Shown piece after piece: positions 55,826 through 63,134 of a stretch of 64,000 nt of DNA (position 1 is its first letter; every line of letters begins with the position of its first letter). The translations under genes were made by a program, and so were the position numbers. The notes below the pieces were generated by a model. That model had not been told where the DNA came from, did not search any database, and saw only the letters and a program-made list of their open reading frames with translations. The DNA is taken from NCBI GenBank assembly GCA_022827625.1, contig JAJEIE010000008.1:186001-250000 (forward strand). Reading direction: 5' to 3'. This stretch comes from Candidatus Poribacteria bacterium. GTDB taxonomy: Bacteria > Poribacteria > WGA-4E > WGA-3G.

Positions 55826-56368
55826 TCACACCATGGGGGTATCGGGAATACCCAGTTTTTCAAAAATTAAGCGCCAACGTTCTCCATGATTTTCGCCTGC
55901 ATTAACGGGAACAAATCCCAAGTTGAGATAATTTTTGATGGCGGGCAGTCGAAAGTCGTCGGTATCCAGCATCACATAAGCCGCGCGCCGCGCTTTAAAA
56001 TAGTGCAGAAGGAACACGGTGAGCCACTTGCCGAGCTTATATCCCCTGTGTTCCGGAAGCACTGCGAGCATGTCAATGTAGCCAATCCTTTTACCGCGGC
56101 GTTCTCTATTCCATGCACATGCCGTGCCTATGGGGAGGTCTTCATAGGTAGCAAAGAGGAACCCGTTCGGATCGAAAGCGGGTTGGCTGATAACATTGGT
56201 ATACGTATCTTGGGCAGTTCTGCCTTGGTCCACAAATGCAATATCCATTATGCGTGCCCAATGCACTTCGTCGCCTTTCTGATAGGTTCGGATATGATAG
56301 CCATCAGGACACTGGAGTTTCGGTAGATGCTCCAAATCCTGCAGACCCATTTTGAGTTGGTCTTCCAT
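55826..56368 (-). CDS. GNAT-family N-acetyltransferase (copy 1)
   Basis: 180 residues. GNAT fold with the acetyl-CoA motif A VLPEHRGYKLGKWLTVFLLHYF (read as R/Q-x-x-G-x-G/A-like EHRGYKLGK) near 107-125 and a strand YVMLDTDDFRLPAIKNYLNLGFVPV. It is paralogous to the next gene: both begin with YHIRTY.KGDE.HWARI-type residues. Substrate unknown. AGGTG lies 6 nt before the ATG and the gene is 7 bp from its paralogue. Confidence 0.85.
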   Translation of the reverse strand: MEDQLKMGLQDLEHLPKLQCPDGYHIRTYQKGDEVHWARIMDIAFVDQGRTAQDTYTNVISQPAFDPNGFLFATYEDLPIGTACAWNRERRGKRIGYIDMLAVLPEHRGYKLGKWLTVFLLHYFKARRAAYVMLDTDDFRLPAIKNYLNLGFVPVNAGENHGERWRLIFEKLGIPDTPMV

Positions 56369-56375
56369 TTCGCAC

Positions 56376-56972
56376 CTAAGCTGCGACTTTCGTCCAGAGT
56401 TCGTCAGGGAGCAACTTTCGGACGTTTTCGATTTGTGATGTCATCGGTGGTAGCTTTAATTTTTCAAAGAGATTTTGCCACCGTTCGGATTGTCCCTCTT
56501 CAACATAGACGGGTATGAACCCTAAATTGAGATAGGTTTTAACAGCAGGGATGCGAAAGTCATCGGTATCCAGCATGGCACTTCTGAATCCATTATCCCG
56601 AAAATAGTGAAGGACGGCAAGTGAGACCCATTTTCCGAGTTTATGTCCGGTATGTTCAGCAACAACCCCGACCATGTGGACGTACCCGACCTCCTTTTCA
56701 TCCACAGATTGCCGCCATGCGCAAGCGGTACCAACGGGAATACCACGATATGTTGCGAAGTAGAATCCGTCCGGAAGAAACACATCTCTCCCTGTAATCT
56801 GGTCCCGCGTATCTTGTGCGGTGCGTTCCCTACCGCCAAACGAGTCGCTGATAATACGCGCCCAATGCGCTTCATCGCCTTCAAGGTAAGTGCGCATACC
56901 ATAGCCTACTGGAAGTTCCAGTTTCGGCAAATTTTCTAAACTGGGACGTACCATTCTGAGCTGCCTTGGCAT
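56376..56972 (-). CDS. GNAT-family N-acetyltransferase (copy 2)
   Basis: 198 residues. YGMRTYLEGDEAHWARIISDSFGGRERTAQDTRDQI, motif A VVAEHTGHKLGKWVSLAVLHYF and AMLDTDDFRIPAVKTYLNLGFIPVYVEEG parallel copy 1 almost position by position, indicating a tandem duplication. The C-terminus is extended by about 20 residues (VRKLLPDELWTKVAA). AAAGGAG lies 6 nt before the ATG, and a promoter (57033-57061) is upstream. Confidence 0.85.
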   Translation of the reverse strand: MPRQLRMVRPSLENLPKLELPVGYGMRTYLEGDEAHWARIISDSFGGRERTAQDTRDQITGRDVFLPDGFYFATYRGIPVGTACAWRQSVDEKEVGYVHMVGVVAEHTGHKLGKWVSLAVLHYFRDNGFRSAMLDTDDFRIPAVKTYLNLGFIPVYVEEGQSERWQNLFEKLKLPPMTSQIENVRKLLPDELWTKVAA

Positions 56973-58873: not shown

Positions 58874-58875
58874 AT

Positions 58876-58979
58876 GGCTGTCGGCTATCAGTTGTCGGCT
58901 GTCAGTAAACCGTTTGTGGCAGTAAAAACGTTGTCAACCGCCACACGATCTGCTGACCGCTGATCGCTGACCGCTACAT
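58876..58979. repeat. Heptamer arrays between aroB and the membrane operon
   Basis: 58876-58910 is five heptamers (GGCTGTC, GGCTATC, AGTTGTC, GGCTGTC, AGTAAAC); 58952-58979 is four more (GCTGACC, GCTGATC, GCTGACC, GCTACAT). No gene lies in this spacer. Confidence 0.8.
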
Positions 58980-58998
58980 ACAAGGAAATACAGGATTT

Positions 58999-60144
58999 AT
59001 GAAAAAAATAATCCAATATCTAACTGTCTATCTGGTTTTATGCATAGCGATTAGCAGTGCATTCAGCCAAGGACTTGCCCCACCGTCAAACGTGACGGCG
59101 GTAGATACCCCAAACGATGATGGCAGTAGTATCACCATTAAATGGGATGCAGCACCCGAGGATAGCGGTATCAGTGGGTACCAAATCCTAAGACGGATTG
59201 CTGGTGGCGGTCTCGAAGAAGTTGGTGAGCTCCTACCCGCTGGCACGACAACCTACGTTGATTCAACGATCGAAAAGGGCAATGCTTACGCCTACATCGT
59301 GCGTGCGGTTAGCGCAACAGAAGCAACGGTGGAATCCGAAGAGACTGCTCCCGTTAGTGGTTCAGGTGAATGGTTTCATACAGGCAAAATTCCGCTCCTT
59401 GTTGCGATGCTCCTTTTTTCCGCAGCGATCGTTTGGAATATCTATGATGCGCGGAGTGGAAAAGAGATATTTGTCAGGCGAATCCCTGGATTAGAAGCCG
59501 TTGACGAAGCGATCGGTAGAGCCACCGAAATGGGGCGTTCGATTCTTTATAGTTTAGGTTTGGGACGCGTAGACGAAGTGCCTACTATCGCGAGTATGAC
59601 GATTCTGGGTCAGGTTGCGCGACGCACTGCCGATTATGAAACACCGTTGCGTGTCCCTTGTCGGGACCCAATTGTTATGAACGTGGTGCGCGAGGTTGTG
59701 CGAACGGCTTATCTTGATGAAGGACGGCCGGATGTCTATAACGAAGAAAACGTCTTCTTCCTAACTGAAAGCCAATTCGCGTATGCTGCGGGTGTAGATG
59801 GCATAATGGTTCGTGAAAAGCCAGCGGCAGTATTTCTACAAGGTCAATTCTTCGCTGAATCCCTTATCCTCGCCGAGACAGGAAACTCAATTGGTGCCAT
59901 TCAAATTGCTGGAACAGATTCCGAGCACCAACTTCCATTCTTTATCGCTGCCTGCGATTATACCTTAATCGGTGAAGAATTGTACGCGGCGAGTGCTTAC
60001 CTGTCAAAAGAACCGATGCTCCTTGGGAGCCTCAGAGGGCAAGATTGGGGAAAACTCTTTATTTTTGGTATTATCGTGCTGGGTGTAGTGCTTGAATTAG
60101 CGGGGGTCAACTGGATCACCACACTCTTACAGCGAGTGAGTTAG
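58999..60144 (+). CDS. Membrane protein with fibronectin III and DUF6754-like domain
   Basis: 381 residues. Signal peptide (about 1-24), a fibronectin type III domain (about 28-120: PPSNVTAVDTPNDDGSSITIKWDAAPEDSGISGYQILRR, as pattern), a membrane helix (about 130-147), a soluble alpha/beta domain (about 150-355: VARRTADYETPLRVPCRDPIVMNVVREVVRTAYLDEGRPDVYNEENVFFL; PFFIAACDYTLIGEELYAASAYLS) and a C-terminal helix. The soluble domain resembles DUF6754, an assignment I make from memory. First gene of a four-gene run with short gaps. Function unknown. Confidence 0.75.
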   Translation: MKKIIQYLTVYLVLCIAISSAFSQGLAPPSNVTAVDTPNDDGSSITIKWDAAPEDSGISGYQILRRIAGGGLEEVGELLPAGTTTYVDSTIEKGNAYAYIVRAVSATEATVESEETAPVSGSGEWFHTGKIPLLVAMLLFSAAIVWNIYDARSGKEIFVRRIPGLEAVDEAIGRATEMGRSILYSLGLGRVDEVPTIASMTILGQVARRTADYETPLRVPCRDPIVMNVVREVVRTAYLDEGRPDVYNEENVFFLTESQFAYAAGVDGIMVREKPAAVFLQGQFFAESLILAETGNSIGAIQIAGTDSEHQLPFFIAACDYTLIGEELYAASAYLSKEPMLLGSLRGQDWGKLFIFGIIVLGVVLELAGVNWITTLLQRVS

Positions 60145-60152
60145 GAGGTTTT

Positions 60153-60803
60153 ATGAAACGACAAGTCCCATTAATCCTCTGCTTTGCTTTTGGGATTGTG
60201 ATGATCCTCACACAATTCAGTCCGCATTCATTTTCGCAAGGGATTTACGAGGAAGTTATCAGTTGGACATTGATTATTTCGCCTTTTGCATTGGTATTAG
60301 CAACAGCGACCCTGATTCAAACCCACGTCGCGCGCATTCAACGCCGCACGGATCATTGGCAATACAGTTTCGTCGTGTTTGCCGGACTCATCACGATGGT
60401 CGTAATAGGGGTTCCATTTGGTCCCCAGCATCAAGCTTTTGAATGGCTCTACACCAATATCCAAGTCCCTATGGATGCAACGATGTTTTCGTTGCTTGCC
60501 TTCTTTATCGCTTCAGCAGCATTCCGCGCCTTCCGTGCCCGAACGTTTGAAGCGAGTCTACTATTAATTACGGCTCTAATTGTCATGATGGGGAACGTGC
60601 CTGTTGGAGATCTCATCTGGAATACGGTGCTCGGGTGGCTCCCGTTGGAAGACGGTGCTTCAAAAGCACGCCAGTGGATTTTGGACAACCCGAATCTCTC
60701 CGCAAGACGTGGCATCATTCTCGGCGTGAGCTTAGGGATAATTTCGCAATCTATCCGCATCATCTTGGGCATTGAGCGTTCGTACTTAGGGGGAGGGGAT
60801 TAG
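60153..60803 (+). CDS. Six-helix membrane protein of unknown function
   Basis: 216 residues, about six membrane helices (5-22, 33-57, 70-88, 107-127, 131-150, 188-207) with basic loops HVARIQRRTDHWQ and RAFRARTFE. No family recognised. AGGAGG overlaps the end of the preceding gene, 8 bp away; the next gene begins 3 bp after its stop. Part of the 58999-62255 operon. Confidence 0.72.
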   Translation: MKRQVPLILCFAFGIVMILTQFSPHSFSQGIYEEVISWTLIISPFALVLATATLIQTHVARIQRRTDHWQYSFVVFAGLITMVVIGVPFGPQHQAFEWLYTNIQVPMDATMFSLLAFFIASAAFRAFRARTFEASLLLITALIVMMGNVPVGDLIWNTVLGWLPLEDGASKARQWILDNPNLSARRGIILGVSLGIISQSIRIILGIERSYLGGGD

Positions 60804-60805
60804 AT

Positions 60806-61600
60806 ATGAATCGGCGAATTGTTTTCATTTTGGTCGCGCTTGCGGTTATCATACCGATGTTGTTACCTGTCAGTCTACCTGTATCGGTATCTGAACCGAC
60901 GCAGCAGCTTTACGATTATATCACCGCGCTGCCTGCCGGATCAACAATCATGCTTGCGTTTGACTACGGTCCGGCCTCATTGGCAGAACTCAATCCGATG
61001 GCAAGGGCAGTGCTGAGACAGTGCTTTGATAGAGACGTTCGCGTCATCGGCTTCACACTTGCCGCAGATGGAACAACACTGGCGAGTACAATTATGCGGG
61101 AAGTTGCTGAAGAGAAAGGCGCAGTAGACGGTGAGGACTATGTTTTTCTCGGCTTCCGTCCGGGCGGCACACAAGTTATGCTGGGAATGGGCAACAGCAT
61201 CAGTAGCGTTTTTGAGACCGATTACAGCGGAAATACCACTACCGAAATTCCGATGATGAAAGAGATTACGAGCTATGACGAAATCGCCCTTCTGATTGAC
61301 CTCGCCTCCGGCAGCACAACAGAACTATGGATCATCTATACAAACGTACGATACGATCTACAGATTGCTGCAGGCGTTACGGGTGTTATCATCTCACAGA
61401 TGTATCCCTACTTACAAACAGGACAATTGGTCGGTCTGATACCCGGCATCTTGGGTGCTGCGCAGTATGAGAGATTAATAGATGTACCGGCAAAAGGGAT
61501 GCTGTGGATAAATATTGAATCGTTCGTGCATTTGTTGATTGTACTACTGGTTGTCATTGGGAATATCATTTTTTTCAATCAACGACGGCGAGAGGAGTAA
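60806..61600 (+). CDS. Membrane-anchored protein of unknown function
   Basis: 264 residues: N-terminal helix (about 5-28), a soluble domain of about 200 residues on one side of the membrane (QQLYDYITALPAGSTIMLAFDYGPASLAELNPMARAVLRQCFDRDVRVIGFTLAADGTTL; YVFLGFRPGGTQVMLGMGNSIS), and a C-terminal helix (about 237-256). The soluble domain alternates beta strands and helices in a Rossmann-like manner, with LAFDYGPAS and FLGFRPGG as conserved-looking turns. Not recognised. GGGGAGG lies 9 nt before the ATG. Confidence 0.72.
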   Translation: MNRRIVFILVALAVIIPMLLPVSLPVSVSEPTQQLYDYITALPAGSTIMLAFDYGPASLAELNPMARAVLRQCFDRDVRVIGFTLAADGTTLASTIMREVAEEKGAVDGEDYVFLGFRPGGTQVMLGMGNSISSVFETDYSGNTTTEIPMMKEITSYDEIALLIDLASGSTTELWIIYTNVRYDLQIAAGVTGVIISQMYPYLQTGQLVGLIPGILGAAQYERLIDVPAKGMLWINIESFVHLLIVLLVVIGNIIFFNQRRREE

Positions 61601-61604
61601 ATTG

Positions 61605-62255
61605 ATGGAACTTTTTGGCATTTGGGTTGCTGCGCTTCTGACACTTTGCATCTATAGTTTTCTTTATCAAGACAATCCGTTTTACCGATTTGCCGAGCAC
61701 CTCTTTGTCGGTATATCTGTCGGATATGGGATTGTCCTCTCTATCCATCAAGGTTTGGTTCCTTTTGCCCTGAAACCGCTTTGGGCAGCACTCACAGGAG
61801 AGTCGCTTAGCGGTTTAGTCAAATTAATTCCGATCGGTGTCGGTTTGCTATTTTTTGCTCGATTATCACCGCAGCATGTATGGTTAATCCGTTATCCTAT
61901 TGCGATTCTCATCGGATTTGGTGCTGGTATTGCGATCCCGAACGTGCTACGCGCGAATATTTTTGAGCAGACCCGTGGAACGATCGAACCGTTTGCAGCT
62001 ATGCATGCTGGGACCCTTTCGGGTTTCGGCGTTTTAGAGGCAATCCTTATGGTTGCTGGAGTGGTTTGCACACTCACCTACTTCTTCTTTTCTGTAGAAC
62101 ACCGAGGTCCCGTTAAATGGCTTTCAAAGGTCGGTATCGCGTTCCTGATGATCGGGTTCGGTTCAGCATTCGGGAACACTGTTATGGGACGTGTTGCGCT
62201 GCTGATTCAACGCGTTGATTTCCTATTAGGCGATTGGCTTAACCTAATTTCTTGA
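61605..62255 (+). CDS. Membrane protein of unknown function
   Basis: 216 residues from the ATG at 61605, which has GAGGAG 7 nt upstream; a TTG at 61539 would overlap the preceding gene. About six helices (5-22, 32-50, 69-86, 93-112, 145-164, 178-197) with YRFAEHLFVGISVGYG and GAGIAIPNVLRANIFEQTRGTIEPFAA. No family recognised. Last gene of the 58999-62255 run; 36 bp before the isomerase gene. Confidence 0.72.
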   Translation: MELFGIWVAALLTLCIYSFLYQDNPFYRFAEHLFVGISVGYGIVLSIHQGLVPFALKPLWAALTGESLSGLVKLIPIGVGLLFFARLSPQHVWLIRYPIAILIGFGAGIAIPNVLRANIFEQTRGTIEPFAAMHAGTLSGFGVLEAILMVAGVVCTLTYFFFSVEHRGPVKWLSKVGIAFLMIGFGSAFGNTVMGRVALLIQRVDFLLGDWLNLIS

Positions 62256-62291: not shown

Positions 62292-63134
62292 ATGAAAATT
62301 GGATATAGCACGTGGGGTATGCCCACAGTACCCATAGACACCGCCGTCTCACACATCGCGAAACTCGGATACGATGGACTTGAACTCACCATCATCCCGC
62401 GTTTTACAACTGAACTCAGCACACTTGACGCTGCAGAACGGAAACGGATTGCGGCTCTGCTGAAAGAGCACAATTTGGCACTCCCCGCAATCGCGGCACA
62501 CTCCAGTCTATTGGAAACAGATCCAGATAGACATGCGCAAAATATGTGGCGGTTGAAAGGTGGTGTCGATTTAGCAGTTGAACTCGCGCAAGGCGACGAA
62601 TTGCCTGCGGTGAATACAACTCCCGGCGGAAAGCCAGAGGAGTGGGATATGCAAAAGGATTTTCTCGCGGAGCGGGTCGGAGAACTCGCCGATTACGGTG
62701 CCTCGCGCGGTGTCACTATCGCTATGGAACCACACGTCGGTGCAATCATCGACACACCCGCAAAAGTGCTTGAACTTCTGGAAATCGTCAATTCGCCGTA
62801 TCTGAAAGTTAACTTCGACATCAGCCATTTTGATATTGTCGGTATGACGACAGAAGAGACGGTAGCGGCGTTAGCCCCGGTATCCATACACACGCACGTC
62901 AAGGATCAACGCGGCACCGCGCCTAATCATGAGTTCCTTATTCCCGGTGAAGGTCCGTTCGACTATGTTCACTACCTCAAAGAGATGCAAGCACACGGTT
63001 ACGACGGGTTTATTACGGCTGAGGTGAGTTTTATGGTGCAAGGGCGCGAAGATTACGATCCACTCGCTGCGGCGACGCTCTCTTACGAGACATTATCACG
63101 CGCTTTCACGGAAGCAGGGATTGAAAGAGGGTAG
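62292..63134 (+). CDS. Sugar phosphate isomerase/epimerase (AP-endonuclease-2-like)
   Basis: 280 residues. MKIGYSTWGMPTVPID start, GYDGLELTII near 30, GVTIAMEPHVGAIIDTP with Glu ligand near 145, KVNFDISHFDIVGM with Asp and His ligands near 178, HTHVKDQRGT near 203 and FITAEVSFMVQ with final Glu near 240 mark the family. Isomerises or epimerises keto-sugars. The following sulfatase begins 2 bp after its stop, suggesting a sulfated-carbohydrate catabolic pair. Confidence 0.87.
   Translation: MKIGYSTWGMPTVPIDTAVSHIAKLGYDGLELTIIPRFTTELSTLDAAERKRIAALLKEHNLALPAIAAHSSLLETDPDRHAQNMWRLKGGVDLAVELAQGDELPAVNTTPGGKPEEWDMQKDFLAERVGELADYGASRGVTIAMEPHVGAIIDTPAKVLELLEIVNSPYLKVNFDISHFDIVGMTTEETVAALAPVSIHTHVKDQRGTAPNHEFLIPGEGPFDYVHYLKEMQAHGYDGFITAEVSFMVQGREDYDPLAAATLSYETLSRAFTEAGIERG

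Follow-up and report, generated by a model that had tools for sequence, protein, structure and literature searches.

The four genes and their products

A 64,000-nucleotide stretch of a Candidatus Poribacteria genome of 5.0 Mb (G000:C37:186001-250000; the whole stretch is called the window here) contains four adjacent genes on the plus strand whose products are membrane proteins. Gene 1 lies at 58999-60144 (381 residues), gene 2 at 60153-60803 (216), gene 3 at 60806-61600 (264) and gene 4 at 61605-62255 (216), and the gaps that separate them are 8, 2 and 4 base pairs (bp). These open reading frames (ORFs) and gaps are exactly those of a preliminary description of the window, which proposed that such tight packing implies a membrane complex of four different subunits. 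The Shine-Dalgarno-like sequences AGGAGG, GGGGAGGGG and GAGAGGAG occur upstream of genes 2-4. Against five genus-level relatives, the four genes have ratios of nonsynonymous to synonymous substitution rates (dN/dS) of 0.05-0.12 where finite, some pairs being saturated at synonymous sites. These finite values identify the ORFs as real genes, which are under strong purifying selection.

The product of gene 1, subunit 1, is a full-length member of DUF6754 (PF20539), a family that carries no assigned function. It matches positions 3-256 of the 257-position profile with 403.5 bits against a cut-off of 27 (E 3.9e-121). The protein is predicted to consist of a signal peptide, an extracytoplasmic FnIII domain at about residues 28-115, a transmembrane (TM) helix at about 130-150, the alpha/beta DUF6754 domain and a C-terminal TM helix. 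The fn3 match (E 2.4e-4) is below the Pfam cut-off by sequence; in the homologue from locus L033 (L, G and C numbers are handles for loci, genomes and contigs), the FnIII fold is recovered by Foldseek matches to titin and Fn3. About 50 residues of subunit 1 are invariant across phyla, including the GRATEMG, AETG, QIAGT and IGEEL motifs.

Subunits 2 and 4 are polytopic, each with approximately six TM helices. Subunit 2 carries an invariant RAFRA(R) cytoplasmic loop and a C-terminal (G)IER motif, while the invariant motifs of subunit 4 are FLYxDN, YF and FGxxFGxTxMxRxxL. Both contain invariant basic and acidic residues, which, speculatively, would fit the handling of a charged substrate, and neither contains an invariant cysteine. 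The subunit 2 ORFs of L031, L035, L060, L040 and L064 are longer than usual (about 310-325 residues), and that of L106 matches the profile in two stretches, suggesting an insertion. Subunit 3 has an N-terminal TM helix, an alpha/beta domain and a C-terminal TM helix. Hydropathy and positive-inside counts predict a cytoplasmic location for the DUF6754 domain and a location outside the cytoplasm for the subunit 3 domain. The preliminary description, which had named an FnIII/DUF6754-like protein, two six-helix proteins and a two-helix anchored protein with a soluble domain, agrees with these assignments.

Profile-profile comparison revealed no homology among the four subunits. In predicted models, the succession of helices and strands is the same in the DUF6754 and subunit 3 domains; however, a profile comparison of these domains alone gives nothing, and a common origin is therefore not claimed.

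Conservation, duplication and partners

A scan of genome contigs with subunit 1 yielded 80 loci, which together with L001 gave 81 for iterated profile searches. They come from records whose titles name Poribacteria, WOR-3, Latescibacteria, Zixibacteria, Fermentibacteria and other groups (phylum labels are taken from these titles, and GTDB may assign others). The other subunits are present in 74-79 of the 81, and loci that lack a member mostly end too soon. The genes do not scatter across these many candidate phyla: virtually all related loci of sufficient length have 1-2-3-4 on one strand, usually a few bases apart. Many loci from Zixibacteria records, and some others, contain two or three whole modules arranged head to tail. 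Where paralogy is clearest, corresponding modules from different genomes pair in the gene trees of all four subunits (L062.1 with L039.2, L062.2 with L039.3, L066.2 with L071.2, and L073.3 with L071.3), while other modules have mixed nearest neighbours among subunits. Between subunits, tree distances have correlations of 0.65-0.88, which shared ancestry alone would also raise. Conserved order, tandem copies and co-duplication together indicate that the four genes behave as one heritable module. A chance grouping of four unrelated genes, for which nothing speaks beyond their lack of annotation, is extremely improbable; it is already refuted by the order conserved in about 80 loci, the tandem copies of whole modules and the co-duplication in gene trees.

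Some versions of the module depart from this plan. L117, L118 and L120 have two successive DUF6754 genes (1-1-2-3-4), and subunit 1 is without FnIII, at 259-292 residues, in L117, L120 and L122. Since it is absent from some homologues, FnIII does not define the DUF6754 family. Some Poribacteria encode the module or DUF6754 a second time, in divergent form (L105, L107, L109 and L112; complete as 1-2-3-4 in L105, L107 and L112). These second copies have different neighbours, for example DUF4340 in L107 and, in L105, SurE together with an undecaprenyl-phosphate-translocase-like gene.

Surveys of whole genomes found DUF6754 in 82 of 85 Poribacteria (55 of the 56 of good quality), in all 60 of the Zixibacteria phylum, where a genome may have as many as six copies, and in 57 of 60 of the WOR-3 phylum; none of 14 well-known control genomes has it. 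Subunit 4, too, is missing from five of the six genomes that have no DUF6754. The sixth, a Poribacteria genome (G017), retains only a 22-residue subunit 4 match, which suggests a fragmented copy. A survey intended for Calditrichota drew largely on the genomes of the Zixibacteria survey and adds no further phylum to the count. This near-universal occurrence marks the module as a core gene set of these groups and not an accessory cluster. Complexes kept by nearly all members of a phylum are normally well known; this module is near-universal in three surveyed phyla, present in several more and multiplied in some, yet none of the libraries and papers searched gives it a function.

The preliminary description overlooked both this core status and a set of three partners, a MutL-type protein, c11 and c18. 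It stated that no recognised enzyme accompanies the four genes, which is correct at the locus in the window but not in other genomes, where a MutL-like ATPase and c11 adjoin the module. The arrangement is c18-MutL-c11-1-2-3-4 in Fermentibacteria. In Latescibacteria c11 is immediately 5' of the module, it precedes subunit 1 in a deep-branching Poribacteria genome (G002), and it is just upstream of the modules in a WOR-3 genome (G181). Two genes separate c11 from subunit 1 in Coatesbacteria (L070). Zixibacteria L066 and L072 have c11 and MutL next to the module in divergent orientation, and in L075 subunit 4 is followed by c18 and MutL. Another genome, G004, encodes c18-MutL-c11 as an operon of its own. 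Among module-bearing genomes outside the close relatives, c11 is present in 33 of 38 and MutL in 32 of 38; 38 of 40 Poribacteria have both. MutL and c11 also occur fused, as single ORFs of about 910-1046 residues separate from the module (G099:C242, G102:C105, G103:C68, and G121:C13 and C17; L113-L115).

The partner MutL is about 610-630 residues long, has an ASKHA signature and matches PF13941 over positions 1-450 of 450 (426.7 bits against a cut-off of 27). It scores 231.6 bits against the NF040745 GlmL equivalog, whose cut-off is 475, and 171 against TIGR01319, whose cut-off is 204. GlmL is an accessory protein of coenzyme-B12-dependent glutamate mutase, with a proposed role as its chaperone or reactivator. 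The partner ATPase thus shares PF13941 membership and the ASKHA signature with GlmL, but differs in its score far below the equivalog cut-off, in its pairing with c11 and in its surroundings: the inspected neighbourhoods showed no mutase genes. The c11 protein, conserved and about 375 residues long, has a barrel-sandwich-like region with sub-threshold matches to biotin_lipoyl, RnfC_N and NQRA_N. Its C-terminus (for instance in L072:3528-4655) carries a strongly conserved VRVIRxPYFGxLGxV...PRANVE sequence that is KOW/SH3-like by eye, an odd motif for a partner of a membrane complex. Around the module in Fermentibacteria (L045-L047 and other loci), glycine cleavage genes lie upstream and TonB-receptor/ExbB/ExbD/TonB-like genes, named by eye, downstream; these were rejected as a functional clue because they do not recur in other phyla.

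Proposed complex and competing explanations

Taken together, the four genes probably encode one inner-membrane complex that works with, and is energised or controlled by, a MutL-type ASKHA ATPase. This assessment rests on the observed gene order, joint duplication, occurrence, c11/MutL linkage and fusions, with topology and the contact between subunits 3 and 4 predicted. Subunits 1-4 would form an obligate complex in which about 12 TM helices come from subunits 2 and 4. Subunit 1 would expose its nearly invariant alpha/beta DUF6754 domain on the cytoplasmic side, with FnIII outside in most versions, and subunit 3 would hold a second alpha/beta domain outside, packed on subunit 4. A cytosolic unit, composed of the MutL/GlmL-type ASKHA ATPase, the barrel-sandwich protein c11 and the small c18, would work with the membrane complex; the ATPase may act on that complex, whose job could be to move or handle a substrate across the membrane.

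Formation of a four-subunit complex, as read from tight packing in the preliminary description, is strongly supported by the conserved order, co-duplication and partial co-folding, though not demonstrated. For co-folding, AlphaFold2 was given read-through translations from loci where adjacent genes share a frame. Subunits 3 and 4 of L054, joined by a linker that contains an additional predicted TM helix, yielded a confident model with a mean predicted local distance difference test score (pLDDT) of 89.9 and a predicted template modelling score (pTM) of 0.88. By an estimate of our own from residue counts, a pTM of roughly 0.55 is expected if the two are not mutually placed, and a defined arrangement of subunits 3 and 4 is therefore predicted.

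Several observations weigh against a single ATPase-linked complex. The model of subunits 1 and 2 of L033, joined by a disordered linker, reached a pLDDT of 79.9 and a pTM of 0.69, a result that is only suggestive. Both co-folds are of the L033 and L054 fusions and not of the chains in the window, and were run without a non-interacting control. In the genome of the window, the module, c11 and MutL are each on a different contig, c11 and MutL being on C36 and C25, and the stretches fetched around those two genes show no c18. Genome G183 has c11 while DUF6754 and subunit 4 are both absent; dependence between c11 and the module is not absolute. Furthermore, the module matched no transporter, pump or enzyme family.

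The separation in the genome of the window and the lone c11 of G183 also favour two independent systems, 1-2-3-4 and MutL-c11-c18, whose core genes adjoin by accident in some lineages. Such independence is unlikely, since in at least five lineages, and in differing arrangements, only a few genes at most separate c11 and/or MutL from the module, which would be rare by chance in genomes of 2-3 Mb.

If the module and the ATPase do form one complex, what that complex does is a more tentative matter. An energised transporter or translocase is the leading functional guess, a putative role that is possible but doubtful and is closely rivalled by a membrane enzyme complex and by an envelope platform. 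As a membrane-embedded enzyme complex, it would bind or modify a ligand through DUF6754 and act outside through the subunit 3 domain, with MutL/c11 as chaperone or reactivator. The unusually strong conservation of the cytoplasmic alpha/beta domain, with its many invariant polar residues, and the placement of MutL in the GlmL superfamily by profile point in this direction. We nevertheless consider it somewhat unlikely: the lack of an enzyme family match counts against it as well, and neither a mutase nor any other metabolic gene accompanies the module across phyla. Foldseek searches of the PDB are no more favourable to it, as the model of subunits 3 and 4 had no significant match (best E 0.074) and the listed matches of the model of subunits 1 and 2 fall almost all on the FnIII part. 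A few whole-chain matches of the latter to dextranase, at a template modelling score of about 0.1, were disregarded.

Near-universal core presence, domains on either side of the membrane together with an external FnIII, an ASKHA partner and several paralogous modules per genome would also suit an envelope scaffold or assembly platform with the ASKHA protein as cytosolic anchor, in a layout like that of PilM. This, too, is unlikely. No gene family for pili, secretion or the envelope was observed repeatedly next to the module across phyla, FnIII is missing in some versions, and Pfam shows no similarity to known platform subunits. In PilM/FtsA-type ASKHA platforms of type IV pili and type II secretion, an ASKHA protein of the cytosol is combined with small partners in the membrane; the likeness to the module is an analogy of layout, and no sequence relation was found.

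The transport reading can be stated in its fullest form as a hitherto undescribed inner-membrane machine of seven parts (the module with MutL, c11 and c18), core to several uncultured phyla and expanded by paralogy, that performs ATPase-dependent transport or handling of a substrate unlike known transporter or envelope-machine families. It is offered here tentatively. An ATPase-linked membrane machine of this type would be of a new kind, and would provide a new context for an ASKHA family known from the accessory protein of one enzyme.

Comparison with known families bears on this novelty. Subunits 2, 3 and 4 have no match above cut-off in Pfam or NCBIfam. A PDB sequence search matched nothing of subunit 1 beyond its FnIII domain and gave nothing convincing for subunits 2-4. 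No PADLOC model is matched by subunits 1-4 or c11, and a known anti-phage defence system was rejected for this reason. No subunit was thus placed in a known complex by these four resources, and the preliminary description's view of an undescribed set stands to that extent. Rnf and Na+-NQR resemble the module as multi-subunit membrane complexes with six-TM subunits, and the barrel-sandwich region of c11 is weakly similar to the N-terminal parts of RnfC and NqrA (sub-threshold E 0.005 and 0.017). The module differs from such complexes, which are marked by Rnf/Nqr membrane subunits and redox cofactor sites: no Rnf or Nqr family is among the Pfam matches of subunits 1-4, and no invariant cysteine occurs in subunits 2 or 4. 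Searches of open-licence PubMed Central articles for DUF6754/PF20539, Poribacteria operons and the MutL context found nothing relevant, an earlier description elsewhere being possible; subunits 2-4 and the operon are in no family description found. As far as tested, no known system shares the subunits of the module, and the operon, subunits 2-4 and the MutL/c11 link appear new as far as searched. This newness could shrink if structure ties the subunits to the fold of a known transporter or enzyme. The parts of the module are now defined well enough for co-folding, co-expression and purification.

Neighbouring genes

The preliminary description considered the neighbours of the module to be set off by repeats. 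This is the case for aroB upstream, which is separated from gene 1 by a 125-bp spacer of short repeat-like sequence (58874-58998), but not downstream, where a xylose-isomerase-like TIM-barrel gene (62292-63134, plus strand; PF01261, E 1.3e-32) begins 36 bp past gene 4 on the same strand and is possibly co-transcribed with the module. The order aroK-aroB-[1-2-3-4]-isomerase-sulfatase is kept among close relatives. Synteny is limited to these, and beyond them the isomerase gene is outside the conserved module. A promoter scan lists no promoter-like match inside the 125-bp spacer, and promoter and terminator predictions in the module region are not above those in shuffled sequence. Elsewhere in the window, two adjacent and similar acetyltransferase-like genes (55826-56368 and 56376-56972) represent a tandem duplication, with a 73-nucleotide repeat that is 75% identical.

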